From positions 1,123,332 through 1,187,331 of the forward strand of contig AZIN01000001.1 in assembly GCA_000511875.1 (NCBI GenBank): a DNA stretch of 64,000 nt, in the 5' to 3' direction. A program made the position numbers and the translations under genes. The DNA comes from Gammaproteobacteria bacterium MOLA455 (lineage in GTDB: Bacteria > Pseudomonadota > Gammaproteobacteria > Pseudomonadales > Porticoccaceae). Below the pieces are notes generated by a model, which ran no database searches, was not told the DNA's origin, and saw only the letters and a list, made by a program, of their open reading frames with translations. This document shows positions 27,097 through 41,720 of this stretch, piece after piece (the first letter of the stretch is position 1; every line of letters starts with the position of its first letter).

Positions 27097-27133
27097 AAGC
27101 CTAAAAGCCGAATCAGCTTTTAGGCTTTTTCTT
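27097..27133 (+). terminator. Rho-independent terminator of the lptM-lysA-dapF-DUF484 operon
   Basis: A 12-bp perfect stem (AAGCCTAAAAGC / GCTTTTAGGCTT) with a 7-nt loop is followed on the plus strand by TTTCTT. The minus strand lacks a T-run. It overlaps the last codons of rnr, whose stop codon (27113-27115) is at the loop. Confidence 0.85.
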
Positions 27134-29566
27134 GGCCGCGGTACCCGCTTTAGGCGCATTGCGACGGCGCTTCGAGCCAGGTGCTGAACCTTTGCCACCA
27201 GATCGAGCACCAGCCCCACGTTTCTTTTTTCCTTTGGAGCCGGTTTTGGAATCTTGCTCACGTACCTTGCCTGCAGCTTTTCCGGCAAATTTTCCAGCTG
27301 GCCGCCTAGCCCCTGGATGGTTGGCGGAATTCTCCTCCCCTGCCAATTCGAAATCAATTTTCCGCTCATCGAGATTGACCCGAACCACCTTCACTCTGAG
27401 TTTGTCACCGAGCCGGAATACACGACCGGTGCGCTCGCCAACCATACGATGCTGAGCAGCTTCATGGTTGTAATAATCTTTCGGCAGACCGGTGACATGA
27501 ATCAGCCCCTCGACATAGAGCTCGTCGAGCATAACAAACAGACCAAACCCGGTCACAGCAGTGACTACACCAGAGTATTCTTGACCGACTCGATCAACTA
27601 AATACTCACACTTTAGCCAGTTGACCACATCGCGAGTCGCTTCATCAGCGCGGCGCTCAGTGACTGAGAGATGTGCTCCAGTTTCATCGAGACGAGGCAG
27701 CTCGTAGGGATAAATATCAGTTTTGGCAATCTCTCTAGCACCATCAACCCGCACTACACCAGAGACTTTTTTACTGCTCCGAATCAGACTGCGAAGAGCG
27801 CGATGAACCAACAGATCGGCATAGCGGCGAATCGGCGAGGTGAAGTGGGTGTAACCCTCAAAGGCGAGCCCAAAATGGCCAAGATTCTCAGCCTGATAAA
27901 CTGCCTGACTCATGGATCGCAGCAGCACTGATTGAATAACCGAAGCATCATCACGATTTTTGGCCGACCTCAAAACGCGCTGATAGTCCTCTGGCTGTGG
28001 GTCGTCGCCGCCACCCAAGCCCATTCCAAGTTCACCGAGAAAGTCGCGTACTGAGGAGAGACGGTCTTCGCTAGGCCCTTCGTGAACCCGATAGAGTGCC
28101 GGTAGCTTAGATTTTTCAAGAAATTGCGCAGTGCAGACGTTGGCGGCCAACATGCACTCTTCAATCAAGCGGTGTGCCTCGGTGCGTTTAACTGGAATAA
28201 TTTGACTTATCTTGCGCTGACTATCAAACAGGATGCGAGTTTCCTGAGTATCGAAGTCAATGGCACCGCGCTCACTGCGACGTTTGTGCAGCACGCGATA
28301 GAGGTCATGCAGCGAATCGATCTGCGGCAGAATGCTGGCAAATCGATCGCGGATATTAACGTCTTCGGCGGAGCCCCGCTCTTCAATAATCTGAGCCACC
28401 TGAGTGTAGGTCATGCGCGCATGAGAATACATCACCGCTTCGTAAAACTGGTATTTGGTAACGTCCCCTTCACGACTGATCTGCATCTCGCAGACCATGC
28501 ACAGACGATCTTCATGGGGGTTCAGTGAACAGAGACCGTTGGACAGTTTCTCCGGCAACATGGGCACAACATGGTTGGGGAAATAGACCGAGTTACCCCG
28601 TTCAAATGCTTGAATATCTAAAGCACTACCAGGTTTTACATAATGTGATACATCGGCGATGGCAACAATTAATTTCCAGCCACCCCGCACCTTGGGCTGG
28701 CAGTAAACCGCATCATCAAAATCCCGAGCATCTTCGCCATCAATAGTAACCAGTGGCAGCGCGCGCAGATCAACACGAAATTCTTTATCTGTAACATGGT
28801 CCGGTATGGCATCGGTTTCTGCTTGAACTGCATCATTCCACTGATGAGGAATGCCATAGTTGCGAATTGAGACCTCAATCTCTAGGCCGGGATCTAAGTG
28901 GTCGCCCAATACTTCAGCGATGTGGCCACTGGGGGGACTGTTGCGCGACGGGGCATCAGTGATGCCAACCAATACGATCTGACCCGGCGCAGCGCCATTA
29001 AGCCGGTCGGCGGCAATCAGTATGTCCTGACTGATGCGCGGATTATCGGGACGTACAAAGTGAATACCGCTCTCACAGAAGTAACGTCCGACCAACTCTG
29101 TGGTCTTGCGCTCCACGACATCCACCAACGTGCCCTCAGGACGTCCGCGGCGATCGCGGCCGGCAATTCTTACCAAAACAATATCGCCGTCAAAGACGCG
29201 ACGCATCTGGCGGCTAGAGAGATAGATGTCTTGCTCACTCGCTTCCAGTGGTGAGACAAAACCATAGCCTTCTGGATGACCTATAACGCGGCCTTTGACC
29301 AAATTTAACTTATCCAAAGTACCGTAGCCATCAGCTCGATTGCGAGCAATCTGACCATCTCGCTCCATAGCCCGAAGACGCCGACGCATAGCTTCAATCT
29401 GCTCGTCATCAACCAACTGCAAACCCACACAGACTTCCTCGTGAGTCAATGGCCCAACACTTTCCCGAAGATAGTCGAGAACAAACTCTCGGCTCGGCAC
29501 AGGCCTTTGGTACTTGGATGCTTCACGACTAGCATAGGGATCGGTCGGTTTTTCTTTTCGAGACAT
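27113..29566 (-). CDS. rnr: Ribonuclease R
   Basis: This is a 3'-5' exoribonuclease that degrades structured RNA, including rRNA and tmRNA-tagged messages. The order is: winged-helix start (SREFVLDYLRESVGPLTHEEV), two cold-shock OB domains, the RNB catalytic domain with the aspartate cluster DGEDARDFDDAVYC and the HFTSPIRRYADLLVHRAL block, an S1 domain (EYSGVVTAVTGFGLFVML), then a very basic Lys/Arg/Gly/Ala-rich tail of about 70 residues. The length is 817. It is convergent with the DUF484 gene. Upstream, 75 nt separate its start from the terminator of the Csr-like RNA. Confidence 0.96.
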   Translation of the reverse strand: MSRKEKPTDPYASREASKYQRPVPSREFVLDYLRESVGPLTHEEVCVGLQLVDDEQIEAMRRRLRAMERDGQIARNRADGYGTLDKLNLVKGRVIGHPEGYGFVSPLEASEQDIYLSSRQMRRVFDGDIVLVRIAGRDRRGRPEGTLVDVVERKTTELVGRYFCESGIHFVRPDNPRISQDILIAADRLNGAAPGQIVLVGITDAPSRNSPPSGHIAEVLGDHLDPGLEIEVSIRNYGIPHQWNDAVQAETDAIPDHVTDKEFRVDLRALPLVTIDGEDARDFDDAVYCQPKVRGGWKLIVAIADVSHYVKPGSALDIQAFERGNSVYFPNHVVPMLPEKLSNGLCSLNPHEDRLCMVCEMQISREGDVTKYQFYEAVMYSHARMTYTQVAQIIEERGSAEDVNIRDRFASILPQIDSLHDLYRVLHKRRSERGAIDFDTQETRILFDSQRKISQIIPVKRTEAHRLIEECMLAANVCTAQFLEKSKLPALYRVHEGPSEDRLSSVRDFLGELGMGLGGGDDPQPEDYQRVLRSAKNRDDASVIQSVLLRSMSQAVYQAENLGHFGLAFEGYTHFTSPIRRYADLLVHRALRSLIRSSKKVSGVVRVDGAREIAKTDIYPYELPRLDETGAHLSVTERRADEATRDVVNWLKCEYLVDRVGQEYSGVVTAVTGFGLFVMLDELYVEGLIHVTGLPKDYYNHEAAQHRMVGERTGRVFRLGDKLRVKVVRVNLDERKIDFELAGEENSANHPGARRPAGKFAGKAAGKVREQDSKTGSKGKKKRGAGARSGGKGSAPGSKRRRNAPKAGTAAKKKPKS

Positions 29567-29641
29567 AGAGATTTTGCTATCAAGTTAATAAGTGGCCAGT
29601 CTATGTCTTATAGGCTATGGAGTAAAAGAAATTCGACGACG

Positions 29642-29680
29642 AAAAAAACCCAGACTTGGCAAGTGCCACGTCTGGGTTTT
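29642..29680 (-). terminator. Strong rho-independent terminator, minus strand
   Basis: On the minus strand an 11-bp stem with AAAACCCAGAC and GTCTGGGTTTT arms (29645-29655 with 29670-29680) extends through a one-base mismatch into TGGCA/TGCCA and ends in TTTTTTT (complement of 29642-29648). It lies downstream of no protein gene on that strand and so marks the 3' end of the untranslated RNA described next. Confidence 0.9.
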
Positions 29681-29717
29681 AAGGGAGGTACCAATGATGT
29701 TAACAGATACTTACTTT

Positions 29718-30037
29718 CACCATCCTTGATGCAGAACGTCCATGTTCCGATGCATCCATCAATATCGGCGGTGCCAAAACGGCTAGTGCTAATTTGACCT
29801 GTTTCCCTAACCAGCCAACTCCCTGTCAGCTGTGCCTCAAGCGTCCTGCTTATCAGCGCCGTCTGTATAATAAATATTGACTCGCACCATCCTTGGTGCA
29901 CGACCTCCTAGTCGCCATGTACTTACACAAAATCGGTAGTGACAAAACGGCTATTGCTAATTTGGCCTGTTTCCTTTCTAGCCAACTCCCTGTCAGCTAT
30001 GCCTCAAGCATCCTGCTTATTAGCGCCGTCTGTATAA
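29718..30037 (-). repeat. Direct duplication of a module of about 166 nt within the RNA gene
   Basis: Module 1 (29718-29870) and module 2 (29884-30037) align over their whole length with 166-167 nt period. The blocks AGCCAACTCCCTGTCAGCT and GCGCCGTCTGTATAA (plus strand) are identical; the middle has diverged. A single-base indel (CCCTAACC versus CCTTTCT) shifts any reading frame. Each module begins on the minus strand with TTATACAG, a possible -10 element, so they may also be two tandem RNAs. Confidence 0.9.
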
Positions 30038-30207
30038 AAAGCAGTGTAGGACTGTAATCTATTCACCACTACCATCCCTTTGTACGCATCATGCTAGGGA
30101 GCCAATACAGGGTTCTATAATAGGCCTGAGTTTTATAAAAGAAAATCACACTGACGAACTAATACTAAAGGATTAGTTTTGGCCCTGAAGGATTAGACGG
30201 CGATAGT

Positions 30208-32451
30208 CTAAGAGGCGAGAAAATCATTAATATGCTGACGTATTTGCTTGACCCGCAAAAGGTTTTTCTCGGCATTGAGAGAACTATAGTCTGCCCTAAA
30301 GGCCAGCACCATCTCCCGCAGTTCGGTCATACCGTATAGGCCGGAGAGACCCATCAGGTCATGAACTATTTCACGCAAGCTACCATTTTCATTATTTCGC
30401 AACTGCTCGTCGAGCTTGTCGAGACTTTGGTAGAGCGCCTGTTTGAGCTCCTCTACTGGAACCACTGTAGACAGCAGCCCCGCTCCTTTGGGCACTGCGC
30501 TATCTTTAGAATTGGTGATAACCTGATTCAGGCTATTGATCAATTCGCTCTCATTGACCGGTTTCAGTAGCAGCATTGCCGCGCCAGCCTTAATGATGCG
30601 CTCTTGCTCCACCATTGTGACATCTGCAGTCAACGCTATAATCGGCGGACTCTCACCAGACTGCTGAATAATCGTTTCACTGGCGATGACACCATCCACA
30701 ATTGGCATATGGATATCCATTAGAATTGCATCCACATGTAACTCACTGGCGATCTCAATCGCCTCTTGACCATTGTTAGCAGTCAAGCAGCTAGCGCCAT
30801 AGCCTTTGAGTAATCCAACGATCAGCTTCTGATTAAACGCATTGTCCTCAGCAACCAAAATGGTCATTCCGGCCAACACATTTTCAGCAGGGACAATGTC
30901 TCGGGATGCGCCAATCAGGGCCTCGGCGTTTGGCGCGGTGCTTAGAGATAGCTGGCAGGTAAATGAAAAAGTCGAGCCTTGACCGACTTTGCTGCGAACC
31001 TGTATCCGCCCACCCATAACCTGAACGAGGTTTTTGCAAATCGAGAGGCCGAGCCCAGCGCCGCCAAAGCGTCGATTTATTGAAGTATCCTCCTGAGAAA
31101 ATGGATCGAATAGTGTTGGGATCTTAGCCTCCTCAATTCCCTTACCTGTGTCGGCAACTGAGCAGTATAAGGTCACCTTGCCGTCACGGTTACTGAGGCA
31201 GCGAATAGCGACATTTATAGAGCCTGCGTCAGTAAATTTTATGGCATTGCTTAACAGATTACTGATTACCTGAGTAAACCTAACAGGATCACCCACCAGT
31301 GCCTGAGGGACCGTCTTATCAATGGTGTAACTCAGAGTCAGCCCCTTTTCTTCTGCTCGCTGGCGCTGAATTGACATCAGGTCGGTGATCCAAGATTCGA
31401 TATAGAAGGACACTTTTTCCAGGGCAAAGCCGCCAGCACGCGCTTTCGAAAACTCGAGAATATCGTCAATCATTGTCAGCAGCATGTTCGATGACATATT
31501 AATAATGCGCAGATTCTCATCGCGTTTCTGCGCATCGGTCTCGATCGAGAGCAACTTAGAAAAGCCAATTACAGCGGTCAATGGAGTTCGCAGTTCATGG
31601 CTCATTCTGGCGAGAAACTGATCCTGAGCCTCCATTGCCTCTTCCAGTTCAATCAATGTTATCTGCAGCTGTGCCGTTGCGCGAGCCACCTCACTTTGCA
31701 TGCGTACATTAGACTGCCTGACAGTGGTCGCCAACTGATTGATACCTGAGGCCAGTTTGCGCACTTCCACAGGCCCAGCCTCCACCGCTAGGTTATTGAG
31801 ACTCCCCGCCTCCATGGACTCAACAACGCCGGTTAGCAATTCCACCGGATGAGAAATGCTTCGCCCGATTCGCATGGATAACCAAGCAGCCATGAGCAAA
31901 CCTAGAGTGGAGACCAGCACAATGGCAAAGATACCTTCGCGATACTGTTCTTCGAGTATTTCATCGGTCAGTGAAACAACCACCCAGCCTAAAACATCGG
32001 GAGCCGGTTGCTGACCCTCGTCGTAATCTTCAAGGGCTGGTGGCGTCAATATCACGCGCGAGTAAAAATACCAGTTGTGATCTCTGTAGACCGGCTTAGC
32101 AAATTCATATTTCTGGGGGCTAACGATCATATCTGGATCCAGTTCGCCTATAGAGACACTGGTATTTTGACTAGCGTTGAAGAACAACAGACCATTCACC
32201 GCCGGAATATCGAGCACCGACTCACCCAGATCCCTTAGCATTTTCCGGTTGTTGGAATACACCGCGAATTCCGCATTAGATGAAATCTGCTGCGCTGCTA
32301 TAGAACCTGTGTTGTGAAGATTAGCCAATAACACGGCGCGCTGACTGGAGATCATATAGCTCGCCAACACTATGCAAAGCAATGTCAGGGGCAACAGCGA
32401 TGTGATTAATAGCCGCGAATGGATACTTGAAAACTGTTGTTTAGCTGCCAT
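30208..32451 (-). CDS. Hybrid sensor histidine kinase of BarA/GacS architecture
   Basis: Domains in order over 747 residues: membrane segment 15-33, periplasmic sensor (about 34-172), membrane segment 174-193, HAMP (195-245), HisKA with phosphoacceptor H285 in MSHELRTPLTAVIGF, HATPase with GGAGLGLSICKNLVQVMGG, a receiver with the phosphorylated Asp in AILMDIHMP, and a C-terminal HPt domain with VHDLMGLSGLYG. This order, and the LGWVV...EEQYREGIF segment before TM2, resembles BarA/GacS, the kinase that drives csrB/rsmY-Z transcription in gammaproteobacteria. It is not proven to be that ortholog: its cognate regulator and binding-protein neighbours argue for a local system. It starts directly after the stop of the binding-protein gene. 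Confidence 0.88.
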   Translation of the reverse strand: MAAKQQFSSIHSRLLITSLLPLTLLCIVLASYMISSQRAVLLANLHNTGSIAAQQISSNAEFAVYSNNRKMLRDLGESVLDIPAVNGLLFFNASQNTSVSIGELDPDMIVSPQKYEFAKPVYRDHNWYFYSRVILTPPALEDYDEGQQPAPDVLGWVVVSLTDEILEEQYREGIFAIVLVSTLGLLMAAWLSMRIGRSISHPVELLTGVVESMEAGSLNNLAVEAGPVEVRKLASGINQLATTVRQSNVRMQSEVARATAQLQITLIELEEAMEAQDQFLARMSHELRTPLTAVIGFSKLLSIETDAQKRDENLRIINMSSNMLLTMIDDILEFSKARAGGFALEKVSFYIESWITDLMSIQRQRAEEKGLTLSYTIDKTVPQALVGDPVRFTQVISNLLSNAIKFTDAGSINVAIRCLSNRDGKVTLYCSVADTGKGIEEAKIPTLFDPFSQEDTSINRRFGGAGLGLSICKNLVQVMGGRIQVRSKVGQGSTFSFTCQLSLSTAPNAEALIGASRDIVPAENVLAGMTILVAEDNAFNQKLIVGLLKGYGASCLTANNGQEAIEIASELHVDAILMDIHMPIVDGVIASETIIQQSGESPPIIALTADVTMVEQERIIKAGAAMLLLKPVNESELINSLNQVITNSKDSAVPKGAGLLSTVVPVEELKQALYQSLDKLDEQLRNNENGSLREIVHDLMGLSGLYGMTELREMVLAFRADYSSLNAEKNLLRVKQIRQHINDFLAS

Positions 32452-35737: not shown

Positions 35738-36409
35738 CTAATTACTGGCTTCCGCGCCTTCATCGAGGCCCAGTTTTTGACCCAAAATACCTGCCTGCGT
35801 ACGATTAGCTAAACCCAGGGCGCGCAGCATAGCGCTAACATGAACCTTCACCGTATTTTCAGACAGGTCCAAATCTCGGGCGATCTGTTTGTTTGAGCGG
35901 CCCTGAGTTATGTGGCGCAAGATATCCATCTGCCGCTTGGTCATCAGCCCTGAGATAATATCCGCACTGGCTCCCGAATCGACTTCATCTATGACTTTGG
36001 CCACATCAGGCATGGCTTCACGGAGGGAATTCGGGACATACTTTTCGCCTTTTAAGGCGCGTGAAATGGCCTCAAACAATGCGTCTTTAGGAGCAGATTT
36101 TGTGACAAATCCAATGGCACCAAAATCCAAGCATTTACGGATATGGGCGGGATTTTCAGAAGCGGAAAGAACAATCACAGGAAGGTTGGGATAACTTTCG
36201 CAGAGCATCGCGATAAAGTTAAACCCACCACCTGCGCCCGGCATAAACAAATCGACTATAACTAGATCGATTTCATCCCGAGCGAGAATAGTAAGCGCTG
36301 TATCGCCGTGATCTGTGGTGGTGACGTCAATGCCTTTATATTCGTCGAGCAGTGTCGCCTTTAATCCAACGCAAACGAACGCGTGGTCATCAACTATGAG
36401 AACGTGCAT
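35738..36409 (-). CDS. NarL/FixJ-type response regulator (LuxR HTH)
   Basis: The receiver domain has acidic pair VDDHAF, phosphorylation site D53 in DLVIVDLFMPGAG and the lysine in GFVTKSAPKD. A LuxR-type HTH (about 155-215) is seen in KRQMDILRHITQGRSNKQIARDLDLSENTVKVHVSAML (given in segments: KRQMDILRHITQGRSNKQIA and RDLDLSENTVKVHVSAML). The ATG at 36409 has a good AAGGAA site 7 nt upstream; an upstream GTG does not. It is the first gene of the RR-TonB-SBP-kinase unit and so the likely partner of the hybrid kinase. It is not GacA-like in the HTH region. Targets are unknown. Confidence 0.9.
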   Translation of the reverse strand: MHVLIVDDHAFVCVGLKATLLDEYKGIDVTTTDHGDTALTILARDEIDLVIVDLFMPGAGGGFNFIAMLCESYPNLPVIVLSASENPAHIRKCLDFGAIGFVTKSAPKDALFEAISRALKGEKYVPNSLREAMPDVAKVIDEVDSGASADIISGLMTKRQMDILRHITQGRSNKQIARDLDLSENTVKVHVSAMLRALGLANRTQAGILGQKLGLDEGAEASN

Positions 36410-36579
36410 GTTTTCATTCCTTGTCTTCACGTCCCTGCGTAATTGACTTTGGCTATTCCATAGCCTCGCCTGAATATAGTGCTTATTTATAAAACAAACA
36501 ACCCAATTCTATTCACTTATAAATTCACTTCAGACGGTTTAGCAGTAACCTCCAAAGATGCTGCTATTACTTTTGCCCC

Positions 36580-38976
36580 CTACAAATCACTCAGTGCGAC
36601 GGATATTTGAGTCTGCAGCGAAGCGTCAGATAACGCCAAATCTCTCGCCCGTAGCAGCGATTTTTTCGCTTCGTCACCACGCCCCAAAAGACTCAATCCG
36701 ACGCCGCGGTGATAGTGAAAAATCGCAATTGATGGCGCCATCTTGGTTACTTTTGCTAACAGTGGCTCGGCCACTTCAGGTAACCCAGATTTAATCAGTG
36801 CCCAAGCATAGGTATCAACGAAGTAAGGTTGCTCTGAATCGGCAAAGCGTTCTGTAAGCTTTACCGCGCGACTGATATTTTTAGCAGATCCATATTCATC
36901 AGTGAGTAAACTGGCAAGATTATTTATCACTGCCTGGTGATCGGGGTTGGTCTTGAGCACTTTTTCGTAGAGCTGAACTGCCCGGTCTTTGTTGTCGAGC
37001 TTCTCATGAGCCGAGGCCAGTAATATCATTAACAGGTTACTCTCGGGCACCGCCTTGAGACCACGCTCAAGGCTTGCCATCGCCGCTTCAGGATCACCTG
37101 CGGCCCGATAATTGGAGGCCAGCGCCGTGTAGCCATTGATCCACATAGCATCCTGCTTCAGCCCTTGCTCCAAAAACTGCACAGCAGTGTCTCGATCGCC
37201 GCGCTTACTGTAAACCGACGCCATAATCGATAGAGCCATCATATTGCTCGGATTATCCGATCTAAAGCCTTTGAGGTAATCGAGCAATTTTTCCACCTGG
37301 CCAAGACGAAGATAGCAGGTAGTGAGCCCCTCAAGTGCGCGACCCAAGTCAGAGTTGATCGCAAGGGCCTGCTGATAGCGCTCAACTGCCGCCTTGTAGT
37401 CCCCCTGAGCCTGCAGCGAGCGTCCCGACAGATAATGACTAAAAGCGGGATTGCGGCCGATCTTATCGATTCGCGATACGATTTTTTGCGAGCCTTCAAA
37501 ATCCTGTTTCGACAATTTAATTTGCGCCAGAATCGATAGCAAAATATCGTTGTCCGGAGAACGTAGCAGAGCATTTTCGAGCAGCCTTTCAGAACGGTCT
37601 ACGTCCTTTTTTTCCAGAAGACTTTGAATAACCGGCACCGCTGCCTGAACATTGCCCGGATTGATATCTAATACCTTGCGGAAGGTGTCGTCCGCCAACT
37701 GACTAGACCCCGAGGACAAATAGGCATTGGCCAACATCACCAGTGCGGGTTCAGACTCAGGGTTGTTGCGCAACACGGTGCGCAGATCACTAACCACCGC
37801 ATCTATGTCTTCAGTTATGAGATGGTAGCGGGCGCGCACCAGAAGGGCCTGTTCAAAGTGCCTATCGACACTGAGCACTTCGTTAACTAATTGCAGCGCC
37901 CTATCCTTCTGTCCGTTTCGCAGCTGTAAATCAGCCTTAAACGCTTTGGCGCGAAACAGATGCTGATCTTCAAATTCATCACTGATGATTTTTTCCAGCT
38001 CAACAAGCGCTCCAGCGGTGCTGCCCCTGGCCATCAATCTGTCGATACGAAAGAAGCGCAAGTCAGCATTTTTCGAGTCTCTGGTGATATAGTGATCGAG
38101 TAATTCATCACCTGCCATGATGTCTTTACTTGAGAGCAAATCGACAATCACCATGCGCACTTCAGTATCGCTGCTATTGCGCTGCAAATAATCCTCCAGC
38201 ACCTGCACCGCGGCATCTATGCGCTGACTGTCATTGAGTAATTTTGCCAGCTTCAGGTAAAAGGCCTTCTCGTTGCGATTATTGGCAATCAGTGTGCGAT
38301 AGTCTGCTTCCATAGCCGCCAAATCATTTATTTCCTCATTGATCTCGGTGCGCAGTAGCAACAAGTGCAAATCGTCGTCTTCACGCTCAATCAGATCTGA
38401 GAGCATCGCTAGAGCAGATGCAGTGTCACCCTGTTTATGCAGAATTGAAATTTTGATCGAGGCAATATCAGCCGATTTATCATTTTTCGCCATCGCTTTA
38501 TCGATGTATTCGATCGCCACGTCATAGAGGTCTTTTTGCAAATAGGCGGACGCCTTAATGGCATAGGCCTCAGCATTATCGGAATCCAATGCGAGAATAA
38601 AATCTGCTTTTTCTAGAGCAGTGTCTGCTTGTTTCGCGAGCAAAAATAGATAGGCAAGTTTTATCTTGGCTTGGATATGATTTGGGTCCAGCTGCTCGAC
38701 CTTTGACAGATTTTTAAACAGCGCCTTCCAGTTTTGTTGCGTCTCGGCAATTAAGCCAAGGTAGTAATAGGCACTGGCCAGCTTGGGGTCGATCTGCAGC
38801 GCATTGCGCAGTTCGACATTGGCCTTAGATAGCTCGCCCTCGGTATAGAGTTCTATACCACTGTTTAAATAGCGATTGGCCGCCTCTTCTTTGGTTCCGC
38901 TGCAGGCAGATATGGATAACAAAAAAACACCGACCATTAAAAATCGACTAAGCGTCCTCATCACTTGTGCGCTCAT
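36580..38976 (-). CDS. prsT: PrsT-like TPR lipoprotein of the exosortase/exopolysaccharide system
   Basis: This is a 798-residue lipoprotein with lipobox LSISAC (Cys25) followed by about twenty TPR-like repeats (pattern YYYLGLIAETQQNWKALFKNL, repeated throughout). PrsT, a TPR lipoprotein, accompanies exosortase and EPS genes in many Gram-negative bacteria, and probably assembles or exports the polysaccharide in the periplasm. Its start overlaps the exosortase stop (ATGA), so expression is coupled. It is the last gene of the operon 43026-36580. Function is by family and context. Confidence 0.85.
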   Translation of the reverse strand: MSAQVMRTLSRFLMVGVFLLSISACSGTKEEAANRYLNSGIELYTEGELSKANVELRNALQIDPKLASAYYYLGLIAETQQNWKALFKNLSKVEQLDPNHIQAKIKLAYLFLLAKQADTALEKADFILALDSDNAEAYAIKASAYLQKDLYDVAIEYIDKAMAKNDKSADIASIKISILHKQGDTASALAMLSDLIEREDDDLHLLLLRTEINEEINDLAAMEADYRTLIANNRNEKAFYLKLAKLLNDSQRIDAAVQVLEDYLQRNSSDTEVRMVIVDLLSSKDIMAGDELLDHYITRDSKNADLRFFRIDRLMARGSTAGALVELEKIISDEFEDQHLFRAKAFKADLQLRNGQKDRALQLVNEVLSVDRHFEQALLVRARYHLITEDIDAVVSDLRTVLRNNPESEPALVMLANAYLSSGSSQLADDTFRKVLDINPGNVQAAVPVIQSLLEKKDVDRSERLLENALLRSPDNDILLSILAQIKLSKQDFEGSQKIVSRIDKIGRNPAFSHYLSGRSLQAQGDYKAAVERYQQALAINSDLGRALEGLTTCYLRLGQVEKLLDYLKGFRSDNPSNMMALSIMASVYSKRGDRDTAVQFLEQGLKQDAMWINGYTALASNYRAAGDPEAAMASLERGLKAVPESNLLMILLASAHEKLDNKDRAVQLYEKVLKTNPDHQAVINNLASLLTDEYGSAKNISRAVKLTERFADSEQPYFVDTYAWALIKSGLPEVAEPLLAKVTKMAPSIAIFHYHRGVGLSLLGRGDEAKKSLLRARDLALSDASLQTQISVALSDL

Positions 38977-40577
38977 AGGGTTCCCTCCAGGCTTTTAGCC
39001 GGTAAAAGTTGTAACAATTGATTTCGACTCGAGCGGATAAACGCCTTCGCACGCTGGTCCGCATCCATGACATCCTCATCAGGCAGCACCGGAGTCGTAA
39101 CTCTGATTAGCGAGCCATCGGTACGATTTAAAAATAGTGCATCCTTAAACAACATCCACTTTTTAATATATTCATTGGCAATTGGAACACCGCGCTCCTC
39201 AAACCAATAATAGACAATCTGATCCTGCAAACCTTTGCGAATTAAAACCCGGTTTACAGGTATCTGGTCCACTGTAGTACGCTGAAAATTAGCAATTTCC
39301 CAGCCACCCCCTGGAATACAGACCTTAGGCGAATGGGGCGATACGCCTTTACGTTGAGAGGCGTAATAGGCAACATAAAAATTAATCGGCCGCTGTTCAG
39401 GGTTGTGATAGTTGATCATCACATATTCGCTAAACCCCAGCTTATCGGCGACTTCTGCATCAATGCTGTCATCTTGACCAGTCCACTCATCAAGTTGCAG
39501 CGGAAAGGTTGCCAAGTTAATCCTCTCTAATGTCGCCGTCTCCTCGCGGGATTCAATCGACGTCAAACCAACTAGGGCTGCAAGTAACATAGGGACCGCT
39601 ACGACAACCGGCAACGGACATTTCAGGCTTGCCATACCGCCGCCAGCATACTGGTCAGCACTGACTGAGACCGGCACCGCAAATGCCTGACGGATACTCA
39701 GGCGCGTAGTGAATAGCTCCATTAGCAGCACCAACAAAAGCATCAGACCACCGCAGGCCATAAAGATTAGCCAGCCCTCGAAGTCATGCAAAAAACCCTC
39801 AGCCATTTCAGCGCCCCAGTTATCCACCAGCAGACCAGTAATCGCGATACGCAGGCTATTCATAAAAATAGTAATTGGCACTGTCGATAAAAACAGGATC
39901 ACTTTTTTCCACAGCGACCCCTGGTACAAATAGGCACCAATGAATCCTAGACTCATCAGTGGAAACAGATAACGCAACCCACTGCAGGCTTCCACGACCT
40001 GCAACTGGTAATTGCCTAGATCAATGATATTGCCACTCAAAAATACAGGTATACGACACAGACGAATGATCTCGACACCCAGCTGTGAAGAGATCAACTG
40101 AAGATTTGAGGTCAGTATCACCTCGATAAAATAGGGAAGCGGTACAGCAAAACCGAGCAGTGCAATAGGCACCCAGGTATGGCGAGTGGCTGAGCCTAAA
40201 AAGGCAATCGACAGGCCCAACAACAACAAAATAAAGGAGTAGTGAATCAGCATATACAGGGCGCTGATTTCACCGACGAGTAAAATTGCCAGTGCGAGAA
40301 CAATAATCGGGAGGCCCCACCAAGAAAAACTCTGATAGCCGGCCGCAATCTGAAAGCGCCGCTCCCAGAGGATATACAGAGAGACCAATGGAATAATATA
40401 GCCGTGGCTATACTCTTCCTGCAGCTGCCAGCGTAACACCGCTTCTGCTAGTCCATCCCAATATAGCCAGAAGCTTAGCCCCAGAGCTACGGCGAATAGC
40501 GCCATACTCAGTTTAGGCGGCATATCTGACAGCCTGTTAACTTTGGCTTCAGATCTATTTTCGTCCTTAAAACCCAT
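38973..40577 (-). CDS. Exosortase fused to an EpsI domain (XrtA/XrtD type)
   Basis: The N-terminal 300 residues form an eight-membrane-segment exosortase with all three predicted active-site residues: Cys198 in EACSGLRYLFP, Arg243 in NSLRIAITG and His264 in HDFEGWL. Residues about 320-510 form an EpsI-type domain (HSPKVCIPGGGWEI, VYYWFEERG). Exosortases cleave and anchor proteins carrying a short PEP-CTERM-like tail, coupled to exopolysaccharide export. I cannot say whether it is the XrtA or the XrtD class. No protein in the window shows a matching C-terminal tail. It lies 3 nt from the STAS-fused glycosyltransferase and overlaps prsT. Confidence 0.9.
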   Translation of the reverse strand: MGFKDENRSEAKVNRLSDMPPKLSMALFAVALGLSFWLYWDGLAEAVLRWQLQEEYSHGYIIPLVSLYILWERRFQIAAGYQSFSWWGLPIIVLALAILLVGEISALYMLIHYSFILLLLGLSIAFLGSATRHTWVPIALLGFAVPLPYFIEVILTSNLQLISSQLGVEIIRLCRIPVFLSGNIIDLGNYQLQVVEACSGLRYLFPLMSLGFIGAYLYQGSLWKKVILFLSTVPITIFMNSLRIAITGLLVDNWGAEMAEGFLHDFEGWLIFMACGGLMLLLVLLMELFTTRLSIRQAFAVPVSVSADQYAGGGMASLKCPLPVVVAVPMLLAALVGLTSIESREETATLERINLATFPLQLDEWTGQDDSIDAEVADKLGFSEYVMINYHNPEQRPINFYVAYYASQRKGVSPHSPKVCIPGGGWEIANFQRTTVDQIPVNRVLIRKGLQDQIVYYWFEERGVPIANEYIKKWMLFKDALFLNRTDGSLIRVTTPVLPDEDVMDADQRAKAFIRSSRNQLLQLLPAKSLEGTL

Positions 40578-40580
40578 CTG

Positions 40581-41720
40581 TTACTCCAACAAAAACCCTT
40601 CAACACCGTGCAGACGCATCAGCCGACGAATCCGTCGACTGATTCGAAACAAACCTAATGCGCCTCCGCGACGCACAATATTGGCTTTTAATAGCATCAG
40701 AGTTCCCAGCGCGGAACTATCAATATAGTCCAAATCCGAACAATTGATCGAAACTCTGGGAATAGTGTCTAACTGCTCGAGTATCGCGCGACAGCCAGAC
40801 TTCAGTACCACCCCATTGACCGCTGTTGCCGCTCCTCCTAGCTGCATCTCAACACTGCCACCCTCAGCATCACTTACAATCTCCATAAATAGGTTTTTGT
40901 CAGCGCGACCCTGCAGCAACTTTTGATAGAACGCCAAAGGTAGGACATGAATGGCGATAAACCGCAGAAACCACAGGCCATCAATAAAATAACGCTTCCA
41001 CAGCAGCGGCTCCTGGACTATCCGCCACAGCCATTCCAAGCCCAATTTTTGCCAGCACAGAGGGGCGCGCTGAACAGTATCGCCAACAAAATTCACCACC
41101 GCGCCGAGGTGACTGATCACCGACGTATTGAGCTTTTCGCGATTGTGCATAATCCACTGCTGACCTTTCTTTGCCCCCAGAGCCACCACTAAAAAGTCTG
41201 GGTGCGCAGTGTTAATCTGCTCGATGATTTCATTGCTGCTCATGCTTTCAACGGAACCCACTCCAGGATTGAGAGCACCACAGGCAACCATACCCACAGA
41301 AGTGCGATTAAGGTTATCGGCAGCCCGTTGCGCCACATTGCCCTGACCCCCAAAAAAGAATACCGAGATCGGCTTATTGCGCTGAGTGTTCTGCAACCTT
41401 TCAAACAGCGATGACCCAGCCACACGACTGCGCAGTGGAATACCCAACAGCTTTGCCATCCAGATCACCGGCATACCGTCGGCAACGACCAAATCGCTAT
41501 AAATCACTGATTCAAGAAAGGCCTCATCTTCCTGAGCCTGTACGATAAAGTTCAAGTTTGGCGTCGAAAGCAAGCACCTGGTTTTGCAGGCAATGGCTTG
41601 CTCAATAATCTCCAATGCCTGGTCCCTGTCTACCTGATCGAATGGCAGGCCCAATAGACTCCAGCAGGTGCGATTGGTTGCTGGAGCGGCAGAAGAGCAG
41701 CCTTGATCGGGAACACTCAA
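40581..41720 (-). CDS. WecG/TagA/CpsF-type glycosyltransferase fused to a STAS domain
   Basis: Residues about 30-220 match the WecG/TagA/CpsF (GT26) family: GLPFDQVDRDQALE, LVVADGMPVIWMAKLLGIPL, PDFLVVALGAKKGQQWIMH and SHLGAVVNFVGDTVQRAP. After a membrane-associated segment (FLRFIAIHVLPLAFY), residues about 275-379 form a STAS domain with the conserved serine site DSSALGTLM. Such GT26 enzymes transfer an N-acetylhexosamine-like sugar to a lipid-linked acceptor. STAS domains bind anti-sigma-type kinases or lipids; attached here it may be regulatory. It overlaps the nucleotidyltransferase gene by 4 nt. Confidence 0.85.
   Translation of the reverse strand: MSVPDQGCSSAAPATNRTCWSLLGLPFDQVDRDQALEIIEQAIACKTRCLLSTPNLNFIVQAQEDEAFLESVIYSDLVVADGMPVIWMAKLLGIPLRSRVAGSSLFERLQNTQRNKPISVFFFGGQGNVAQRAADNLNRTSVGMVACGALNPGVGSVESMSSNEIIEQINTAHPDFLVVALGAKKGQQWIMHNREKLNTSVISHLGAVVNFVGDTVQRAPLCWQKLGLEWLWRIVQEPLLWKRYFIDGLWFLRFIAIHVLPLAFYQKLLQGRADKNLFMEIVSDAEGGSVEMQLGGAATAVNGVVLKSGCRAILEQLDTIPRVSINCSDLDYIDSSALGTLMLLKANIVRRGGALGLFRISRRIRRLMRLHGVEGFLLE

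Follow-up and report, generated by a model that had tools for sequence, protein, structure and literature searches.

On the minus strand of the window, by which is meant the whole 64,000-nucleotide stretch of DNA analysed, an RNA-like element lies between the gene for a BarA-like hybrid sensor kinase and rnr (Table 1), and in the loci of relatives the order kinase, RNA, rnr is found wherever both flanks are present. The element is most likely an independent small RNA of the SAR92/HTCC2207 genus, with its transcription predicted from the sequence. An earlier, sequence-only reading of the region had described a decoy RNA of the Csr/Rsm type, spanning 29642-30085 and built from two tandem modules that are closed by a strong terminator. 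The modules are real, as is the terminator-like inverted repeat, which has a 3' run of seven T, four of them within the arm. However, the covariance-model match to unit 1 (29874-30108, minus strand; G000:C1:1153205-1153439, G000 being the genome of the window) places the predicted start of the RNA at about 30108, some 23 nt further 5', and a 5' domain that is not duplicated had been missed. A scan of the locus for consensus promoters and terminators returned neither a sigma-70 pair nor a terminator. The rnr gene appears to have a promoter-like stretch of its own, and a similar stretch, again judged by eye, precedes rnr in relatives that do not have the RNA or in which rnr stands beside an rplS-like gene. 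Open reading frames of 97 and 118 aa overlap the region, but a protein-coding role was rejected given the 1-nt indel between the modules and the fact that conservation tracks the stems.

Table 1. Features of the RNA locus in the window, with the loci of the diverged form in relatives.
Feature	Position	Strand	Remarks
rnr	27113-29566		flanking gene
Promoter-like stretch of rnr (CTTTTACTC ... TATAAGACATAGACTG)	29597-29628	minus	3' of the terminator; read by eye
Whole predicted RNA	29641-30108	minus	covariance-model match to unit 1, second module and terminator; both ends approximate
Terminator-like inverted repeat	29645-29680	minus	17-nt arms, 94% complementary
Module 2	29717-29866	minus	H-A 29839-29851, H-B 29813-29831, H-C 29734-29747, H-D 29717-29732
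Module 1 H-D, GCACC-AAGGAT-GGTGC	29884-29899	minus	A-U to G-C in 9/19 sequences
Module 1 H-C, CGAC-TAGGAG-GTCG	29901-29914	minus	no both-side changes among single units
Module 1 H-B, loop AGGGA	29980-29998	minus	both-side changes in 3/7 pairs
Module 1 H-A, AAGC-AGGAT-GCTT	30006-30018	minus	both-side changes in 2/3 pairs
P3 hairpin ACAGTCCTACACTGC	30041-30055	minus	loop complementary to the csrA Shine-Dalgarno region
P2 5' strand (GGTAGTGGTG)	30064-30073	minus	pairs with the stretch around CACTACC, 29935-29941
P1 5' strand (TTGGCTC)	30099-30105	minus	pairs with 29877-29883; both-side changes in 2/8 pairs
-10-like element TATTATAG	30115-30122	minus	similar A/T-rich element at the same place in relatives, by eye
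Palindrome CTAATCCTTTAGTATTAG	30159-30176	minus	candidate activator site; its centre is about 60 bp 5' of where the RNA is predicted to start
BarA-like hybrid sensor kinase	30208-32451	minus	Pfam HAMP, HisKA, HATPase, receiver
LuxR/NarL-type response regulator	35738-36430	minus	candidate partner in the same gene cluster; 85 bits against a UvrY cut-off of 280
Diverged RNA form in small-genome relatives	L204, L205, L206, L207, L208, L078		

The element is a conserved, covarying structured RNA. The 446 nt of the minus strand fold with a z score of -4.25 relative to dinucleotide shuffles, none of 100 of which is as stable. The RNA consists of two domains, a single 5' domain followed by a 3' GGA module, and the same architecture was recovered when two clades (11 and 10 sequences, with G044 excluded) were folded separately. 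In order, this comprises the closing helix P1, a 5' hairpin, the long-range helix P2, the hairpin P3, the helix P4 and the hairpins H-A, H-B, H-C and H-D. RNAalifold on the homologous spacers, proposed in the sequence-only reading as a check of its hairpins, found them conserved: in an alignment of 19 units (A1, from which G040, G029 and G044 were left out) the structure of 43 pairs, taken without P2, is paired in 98.5% of cells. Both sides have changed in 15 of the 43 pairs, and none of 500 shuffles reaches either that value or the 98.5% pairing; slid controls pair at 28-40%. Of five fold measures one, the number of further pair types, is not above the shuffles (446/500 as high). P2 was recovered independently in both clades with different letters in each; it is nearly invariant within the second clade, and in the first its register is approximate, the clade fold and the fold of a single sequence placing it differently. 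The P3 loop, CCUACACUGC, is near-invariant across the units.

The two tandem modules of the window are spaced by 167/168 nt, from which follows the 1-nt indel between copies that had been claimed. The hairpin pair for which compensatory changes were described is located at the equivalent positions of the two modules, with GAAC-ATGGAC-GTTC as H-C of module 2, so that the H-C pairs do change between the modules of this genome. The third hairpin pair, where H-D of module 2 reads GCATC-AAGGAT-GGTGA, is likewise as described. As the 5' third is not duplicated in the window, the RNA is made up of one 5' domain and two copies of the 3' module. Tandem repetition of the 3' module is seen in four genomes, with two copies in the window's own, three in G023, four in G037 and at least two in G001, where the contig is cut and the count is a lower bound. 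Where the 5' part is present (G000, G023 and G037) no second 5' domain accompanies the repeated modules; in G034 the whole unit is doubled. At the start of the G001 contig (L007 1-36) part of the RNA leader stands in inverted orientation, which probably reflects misassembly at the tandem repeat.

The sequence-only reading had taken the GGA content of the minus strand as a signal of a decoy. The same counts were obtained, 13 GGA triplets on the minus strand of 29640-30090 and two on the plus strand, but 13 is within chance for this G-rich strand: mononucleotide shuffles have a mean of 9.9, and 799 of 5000 reach 13. Windows near 54.9-55.2 kb show an equal or larger strand bias. The raw count was therefore dropped as evidence, leaving the position and conservation of the triplets as the signal. 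The claim that they sit in the loops of small hairpins was borne out, and GGA is presented in the hairpin loops of the RNA. Of 60 trinucleotides only one has a higher mean unpaired probability than GGA (0.73, compared with 0.41 in shuffled sequences), and in 18 of the 22 units the unpaired probability of GGA exceeds that of all 15 shuffles. The loop GGA is kept in 18/22 units for H-A, 21/22 for H-B (as GGGA), 21/22 for H-C and 22/22 for H-D. Several GGA in hairpin loops or otherwise unpaired are thus found, as looked for in a Csr/Rsm decoy. Single units carry five to eight GGA and, counted from the start of the RNA as far as the first run of T, there are 13 in G000, 19 in G023 and 21 in G037; across lineages the number ranges from 3 to 21.

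The P3 hairpin has a conserved complementarity, established by computation, to the Shine-Dalgarno region of csrA, with which it is predicted to pair. The csrA starts could be read in 41 genomes of the genus. An exact AGYAGTGTAGG stands just before csrA in 22 of the 24 RNA-bearing genomes with a readable csrA start, the exceptions being G026 (9 of 11 letters) and G029 (10 of 11), and in none of 16 genomes without this form of the RNA, which score 6-8 of 11. The site of G048, which has a diverged RNA and belongs to neither class, matches at 10 of 11. G013 and G032, the latter with an RNA truncated at a contig end, were counted for the csrA site and lie outside the 22 units (G013 also gives a model match), while G001 has the RNA and no csrA was found. 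AGYAGTGTAGG followed by 4-10 nt and ATG is present in 26 of the 50 genomes of the genus, in 22 of them at csrA; matches away from csrA occur in G024, G029 (three), G031 and G033. Within the 22 genomes no gene start other than that of csrA is matched, save that in G013 a second match falls on the strand complementary to the RNA gene.

For 19 of the 22 units the duplex of P3 with its cognate csrA start is predicted at -23 to -29 kcal/mol, compared with means of -11 to -14 kcal/mol for shuffles, of which at most 1 in 200 is as low. The duplexes of G026 (-17.7 kcal/mol) and G029 (-18.9 kcal/mol) are weak, and G002, whose loop reads UUCUACACU, was not correctly scored. Full-length duplex energies were not used since they mix in other pairings. 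In the genome of the window P3 scores -28.9 kcal/mol with csrA and -20.3 kcal/mol with the best of 56 ORF starts of the window; P3 of three RNAs against the csrA starts of the 16 genomes without this form of the RNA gives -6.5 to -20.0 kcal/mol. The contiguous Watson-Crick run with csrA is 12-14 in 13 of the 22 units and 7-10 in the other nine, among them G016, where a mismatch leaves a run of 8. The longest run in the window's genome is 9, a length also reached by another stretch of the RNA, and becomes 12 with one G-U pair, which 11 of 100 shuffles reach; for the eight units with a G-U-allowed run of 11 or 12, between 7 and 30 of 100 shuffles do so. In predictions for four csrA leaders by themselves, the site is no more than partly open.

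A CsrA match is found in 42 of the 50 genomes of the genus. In the window's genome (L063 1501-1617) the first 39 of 53 profile positions are in one frame, which is broken afterwards, possibly by a sequencing error; the other 41 matches cover 52 or 53 positions. The csrA leaders of RNA-bearing genomes (L105-L126) are long and similar to one another; they contain several GGA, and a hairpin precedes the start codon, which suggests that CsrA may regulate its own synthesis. By eye, the long shared leader is absent from relatives without the RNA.

Upstream of the RNA the palindrome and its flank occur once per genome in 24 of the 94 genomes searched, the window's own included, all of them of the genus; the palindrome is also present in G005, G036 and G048, which do not have the main form of the RNA. 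The GacA-type box has the consensus TGTAAGN6CTTACA. No such box, allowing up to three mismatches to this consensus, was found upstream of the RNA, and the window as a whole holds 19 matches compared with 22.5 expected. None of the 50 genomes of the genus has a UvrY/GacA protein over the NF007018 cut-off, which one of 14 control genomes exceeds. The best NCBIfam match of the adjacent kinase is BarA at 418 bits, below the cut-off of 890. In at least 20 of the 25 RNA-bearing genomes, that of the window included, a LuxR-type match of 72-89 bits is found at a distance of 5.4-5.7 kb from the RNA, and the kinase and the LuxR-type regulator may together drive the RNA. Beside this regulator in the window (36580-41720, minus strand) are genes for a TPR protein, an exosortase-like membrane protein and a WecG/TagA-like glycosyltransferase, named by eye, so that an exopolysaccharide-type cluster adjoins the probable CsrA antagonist RNA.

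The RNA is confined to a narrow group. A DNA search gave a match in 21 of 93 relatives besides the genome of the window, 20 of these in the genus, and the lone match outside it covers just a short hairpin repeat. The covariance model (19 units) has a strong match (E < 1e-11) in 25 of the 50 genomes of the genus, that of the window among them, and in none of 241 other relatives; weak matches occur in 11 of these 241, the best at 3.7e-5. A locus was read in six of these 11 genomes. Five of them (G057, G095, G096, G112 and G235) have a GGA-hairpin repeat that shares or resembles H-D, the G120 locus shows none, and homology outside the genus was rejected because an H-D-like repeat is seen and never the whole RNA. 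Of 21 matches to a sequence pattern, 20 fall in SAR92, HTCC2207, Porticoccaceae or related uncultured Pseudomonadales/Cellvibrionales records, and the other, a Butyrivibrio record, is taken for chance. HTCC2207, which we take to be an isolate, carries the RNA with a single module.

The GGA-hairpin repeat is intergenic in other genera of the family (L069 2209-2238 and 2390-2419, read as L030; L199; L200; L202), and a similar one is present in another family (L201). It mostly ends in GCACCNNGGATGGTGCGAGTCAAT or a close variant, which is nearly identical to the H-D hairpin plus the 3' strand of P1. The exact core of the repeat, GCACCNNGGANGGTGCGAGTC, is found in five of nine genomes searched, including that of the window, with up to five copies in one. 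Judging by its sequence, the repeat may have given rise to the 3' end of the RNA or may be a scattered family of CsrA sites.

A streamlined subclade of small genomes (G036, G010, G008, G043 and G005) has a diverged RNA at the same place, and in G014 of this subclade the diverged RNA is without the 5' part. These RNAs have a P1-like helix by eye and three to five GGA in all; the H-D loop reads AUAGAU or AUAGAC and an H-C-like loop AGGGUA, so that GGA is lost from two loops. Pairing with the cognate csrA was not clearly beyond chance in any of the four tested, the best being G008, where 6 of 100 shuffles reach it. Either this subclade gave up both a role of the RNA with CsrA and the csrA site, or the RNA had an older role of another kind. 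In G048 (L051) the palindrome is intact, the RNA is diverged (H-D-like loop ATAGAC) and one letter of the csrA site is mismatched, which may point to a recent loss of function. On a tree of rnr, built from one 250-residue stretch and changing in shape with the sampling, absence or divergence of the RNA falls in about three lineages and coincides with loss of the csrA site. As these are few independent events, the apparent co-loss of RNA and csrA site is suggestive.

Covariance models of the known families gave no support for the classification first proposed. The Rfam models CsrB, CsrC, RsmX/Y/Z and TwoAYGGAY have no match in the window, and a search of 18 homologous loci at E values up to 1 returned four matches, all to other families and all below gathering. 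With no csr/rsm model matching, and with neither a GacA box nor a UvrY/GacA protein over the cut-off, the RNA is not filed in an Rfam family. As far as the sequence can say, it would nevertheless work like a Csr/Rsm decoy: the proposed type stands as regards the conserved RNA, its loop GGA, the BarA-like kinase and the presence of csrA, and falls as regards the Rfam match, the GacA box and UvrY/GacA. With CsrB/CsrC and RsmX/Y/Z the RNA shares an intergenic position, a terminator-like repeat of its own, GGA in loops, a host with csrA and a BarA-like kinase nearby. It differs from them in these same missing features, in its long-range covarying core and csrA-complementary 5' domain, and in the tandem repetition of its decoy module in some genomes.

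The reading that we prefer, with a probability of roughly 0.58, is that the RNA antagonises CsrA in two ways, as a decoy for the protein and as an antisense RNA to csrA. The upstream palindrome would be the target of a two-component pair encoded nearby, made up of the BarA-like kinase and perhaps the regulator of LuxR type. The GGA loops of the 3' module, on stems whose structure is shown by covariation, would serve as CsrA decoy sites, and some lineages have multiplied this module, while P3, through its complementarity to the Shine-Dalgarno region, would block translation of csrA. Together the two actions would leave less free CsrA and lead to less new CsrA. The fuller picture of a self-contained off-switch for the global regulator CsrA, in which a 5' antisense hairpin is joined to a 3' module present two to four times in some lineages and a local kinase and regulator take the place of GacS/GacA, is more tentative, its chances lying somewhat short of even. 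The loss of GGA and the lack of a clear csrA match in the streamlined subclade count against the two-way reading.

How much of the RNA acts on CsrA itself and how much on csrA is the first point on which other explanations turn. Were the RNA a CsrA decoy alone, P3 would be a structural hairpin and its match to csrA a coincidence or relic. The modest run in the window's genome (9 Watson-Crick pairs, 12 with G-U) and the lack of a full csrA site in G026 and G029 would fit this, whereas an unbroken run of 12-14 pairs at a shared csrA position in 13 of the 22 units, csrA as the only gene start matched in the 22 genomes (the RNA complement in G013 aside) and the low variability of CCUACACU relative to most of the RNA argue against it, and we regard it as unlikely while still worth serious attention. 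The converse, that it is mainly an antisense RNA for csrA and perhaps other mRNAs, with CsrA binding as a helper or absent, would accommodate the complementarity of P3 and a GGA number as variable as that seen across lineages. It is, however, the GGA module and not P3 that is repeated in G000, G023 and G037, where the 5' part is complete, and the stems that carry the conserved GGA loops covary, which makes this explanation improbable.

Two further explanations leave CsrA aside. In every locus with both flanks present the RNA stands immediately before rnr, in the window with the terminator between them, and this could point to a cis-acting, riboswitch-like leader or attenuator of rnr; the promoter-like stretch 3' of the terminator is, by eye, kept before rnr where the RNA is absent, and a leader or riboswitch is for that reason held very unlikely. 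A structured RNA with another protein partner or a ligand, for which the GGA loops and the csrA match are incidental, would explain why the long-range P1, P2 and P4 and the near-invariant 5' segments exceed a plain string of GGA hairpins, and why an RNA is retained in the streamlined subclade although GGA has gone from two of its loops. Against this, the exposed GGA and the match to csrA both indicate one system, and such a partner seems hardly probable.

Known Csr/Rsm decoys, to our knowledge, target CsrA as a protein, its synthesis being controlled by other means. The two-way reading has partial counterparts. The nearest dual-mode precedent is McaS of E. coli, which sequesters CsrA, pairs with mRNAs and has four GGA (PMC10729762); the present RNA is likewise proposed, from its sequence, to combine a decoy with mRNA pairing, whereas the targets named for McaS in the accessible part of that source are csgD and flhD, not csrA, and tandem modules are not mentioned there. 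SrbA of Pseudomonas aeruginosa shares a predicted pairing with a csrA-family mRNA, over the ribosome-binding site of rsmA, with lower expression reported; it is not described as a decoy in the part of the paper available, and the text of the paper does not contain the term GGA (PMC12203948). The numbers of GGA given for CsrB and CsrC in the accessible text of a further study are 22 and 14, and the same text describes the marine Csr RNAs Pf1, Pf2 and Pf3 of Pseudoalteromonas fuliginea with 25, 21 and 9 GGA, along with a separate antisense RNA, sRNA0654, predicted to regulate csrA mRNA (PMC11882849). By that description, decoy and csrA antisense are separate RNAs in this organism. In the open-licence literature, as far as its texts were available, no report was found of one RNA as both CsrA decoy and csrA antisense, nor was a CsrA or small-RNA paper found there for SAR92.

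SAR92 is an abundant coastal marine clade. If the two-way reading is true, the clade gains a post-transcriptional regulator, and an RNA with both actions would make a sharper and longer-lasting CsrA switch. The relatives would then form a natural series in which extra copies of the GGA module, alongside one antisense part, tune the decoy capacity. Because HTCC2207, presumably an isolate, carries the single-module RNA, the two-way idea is directly testable.
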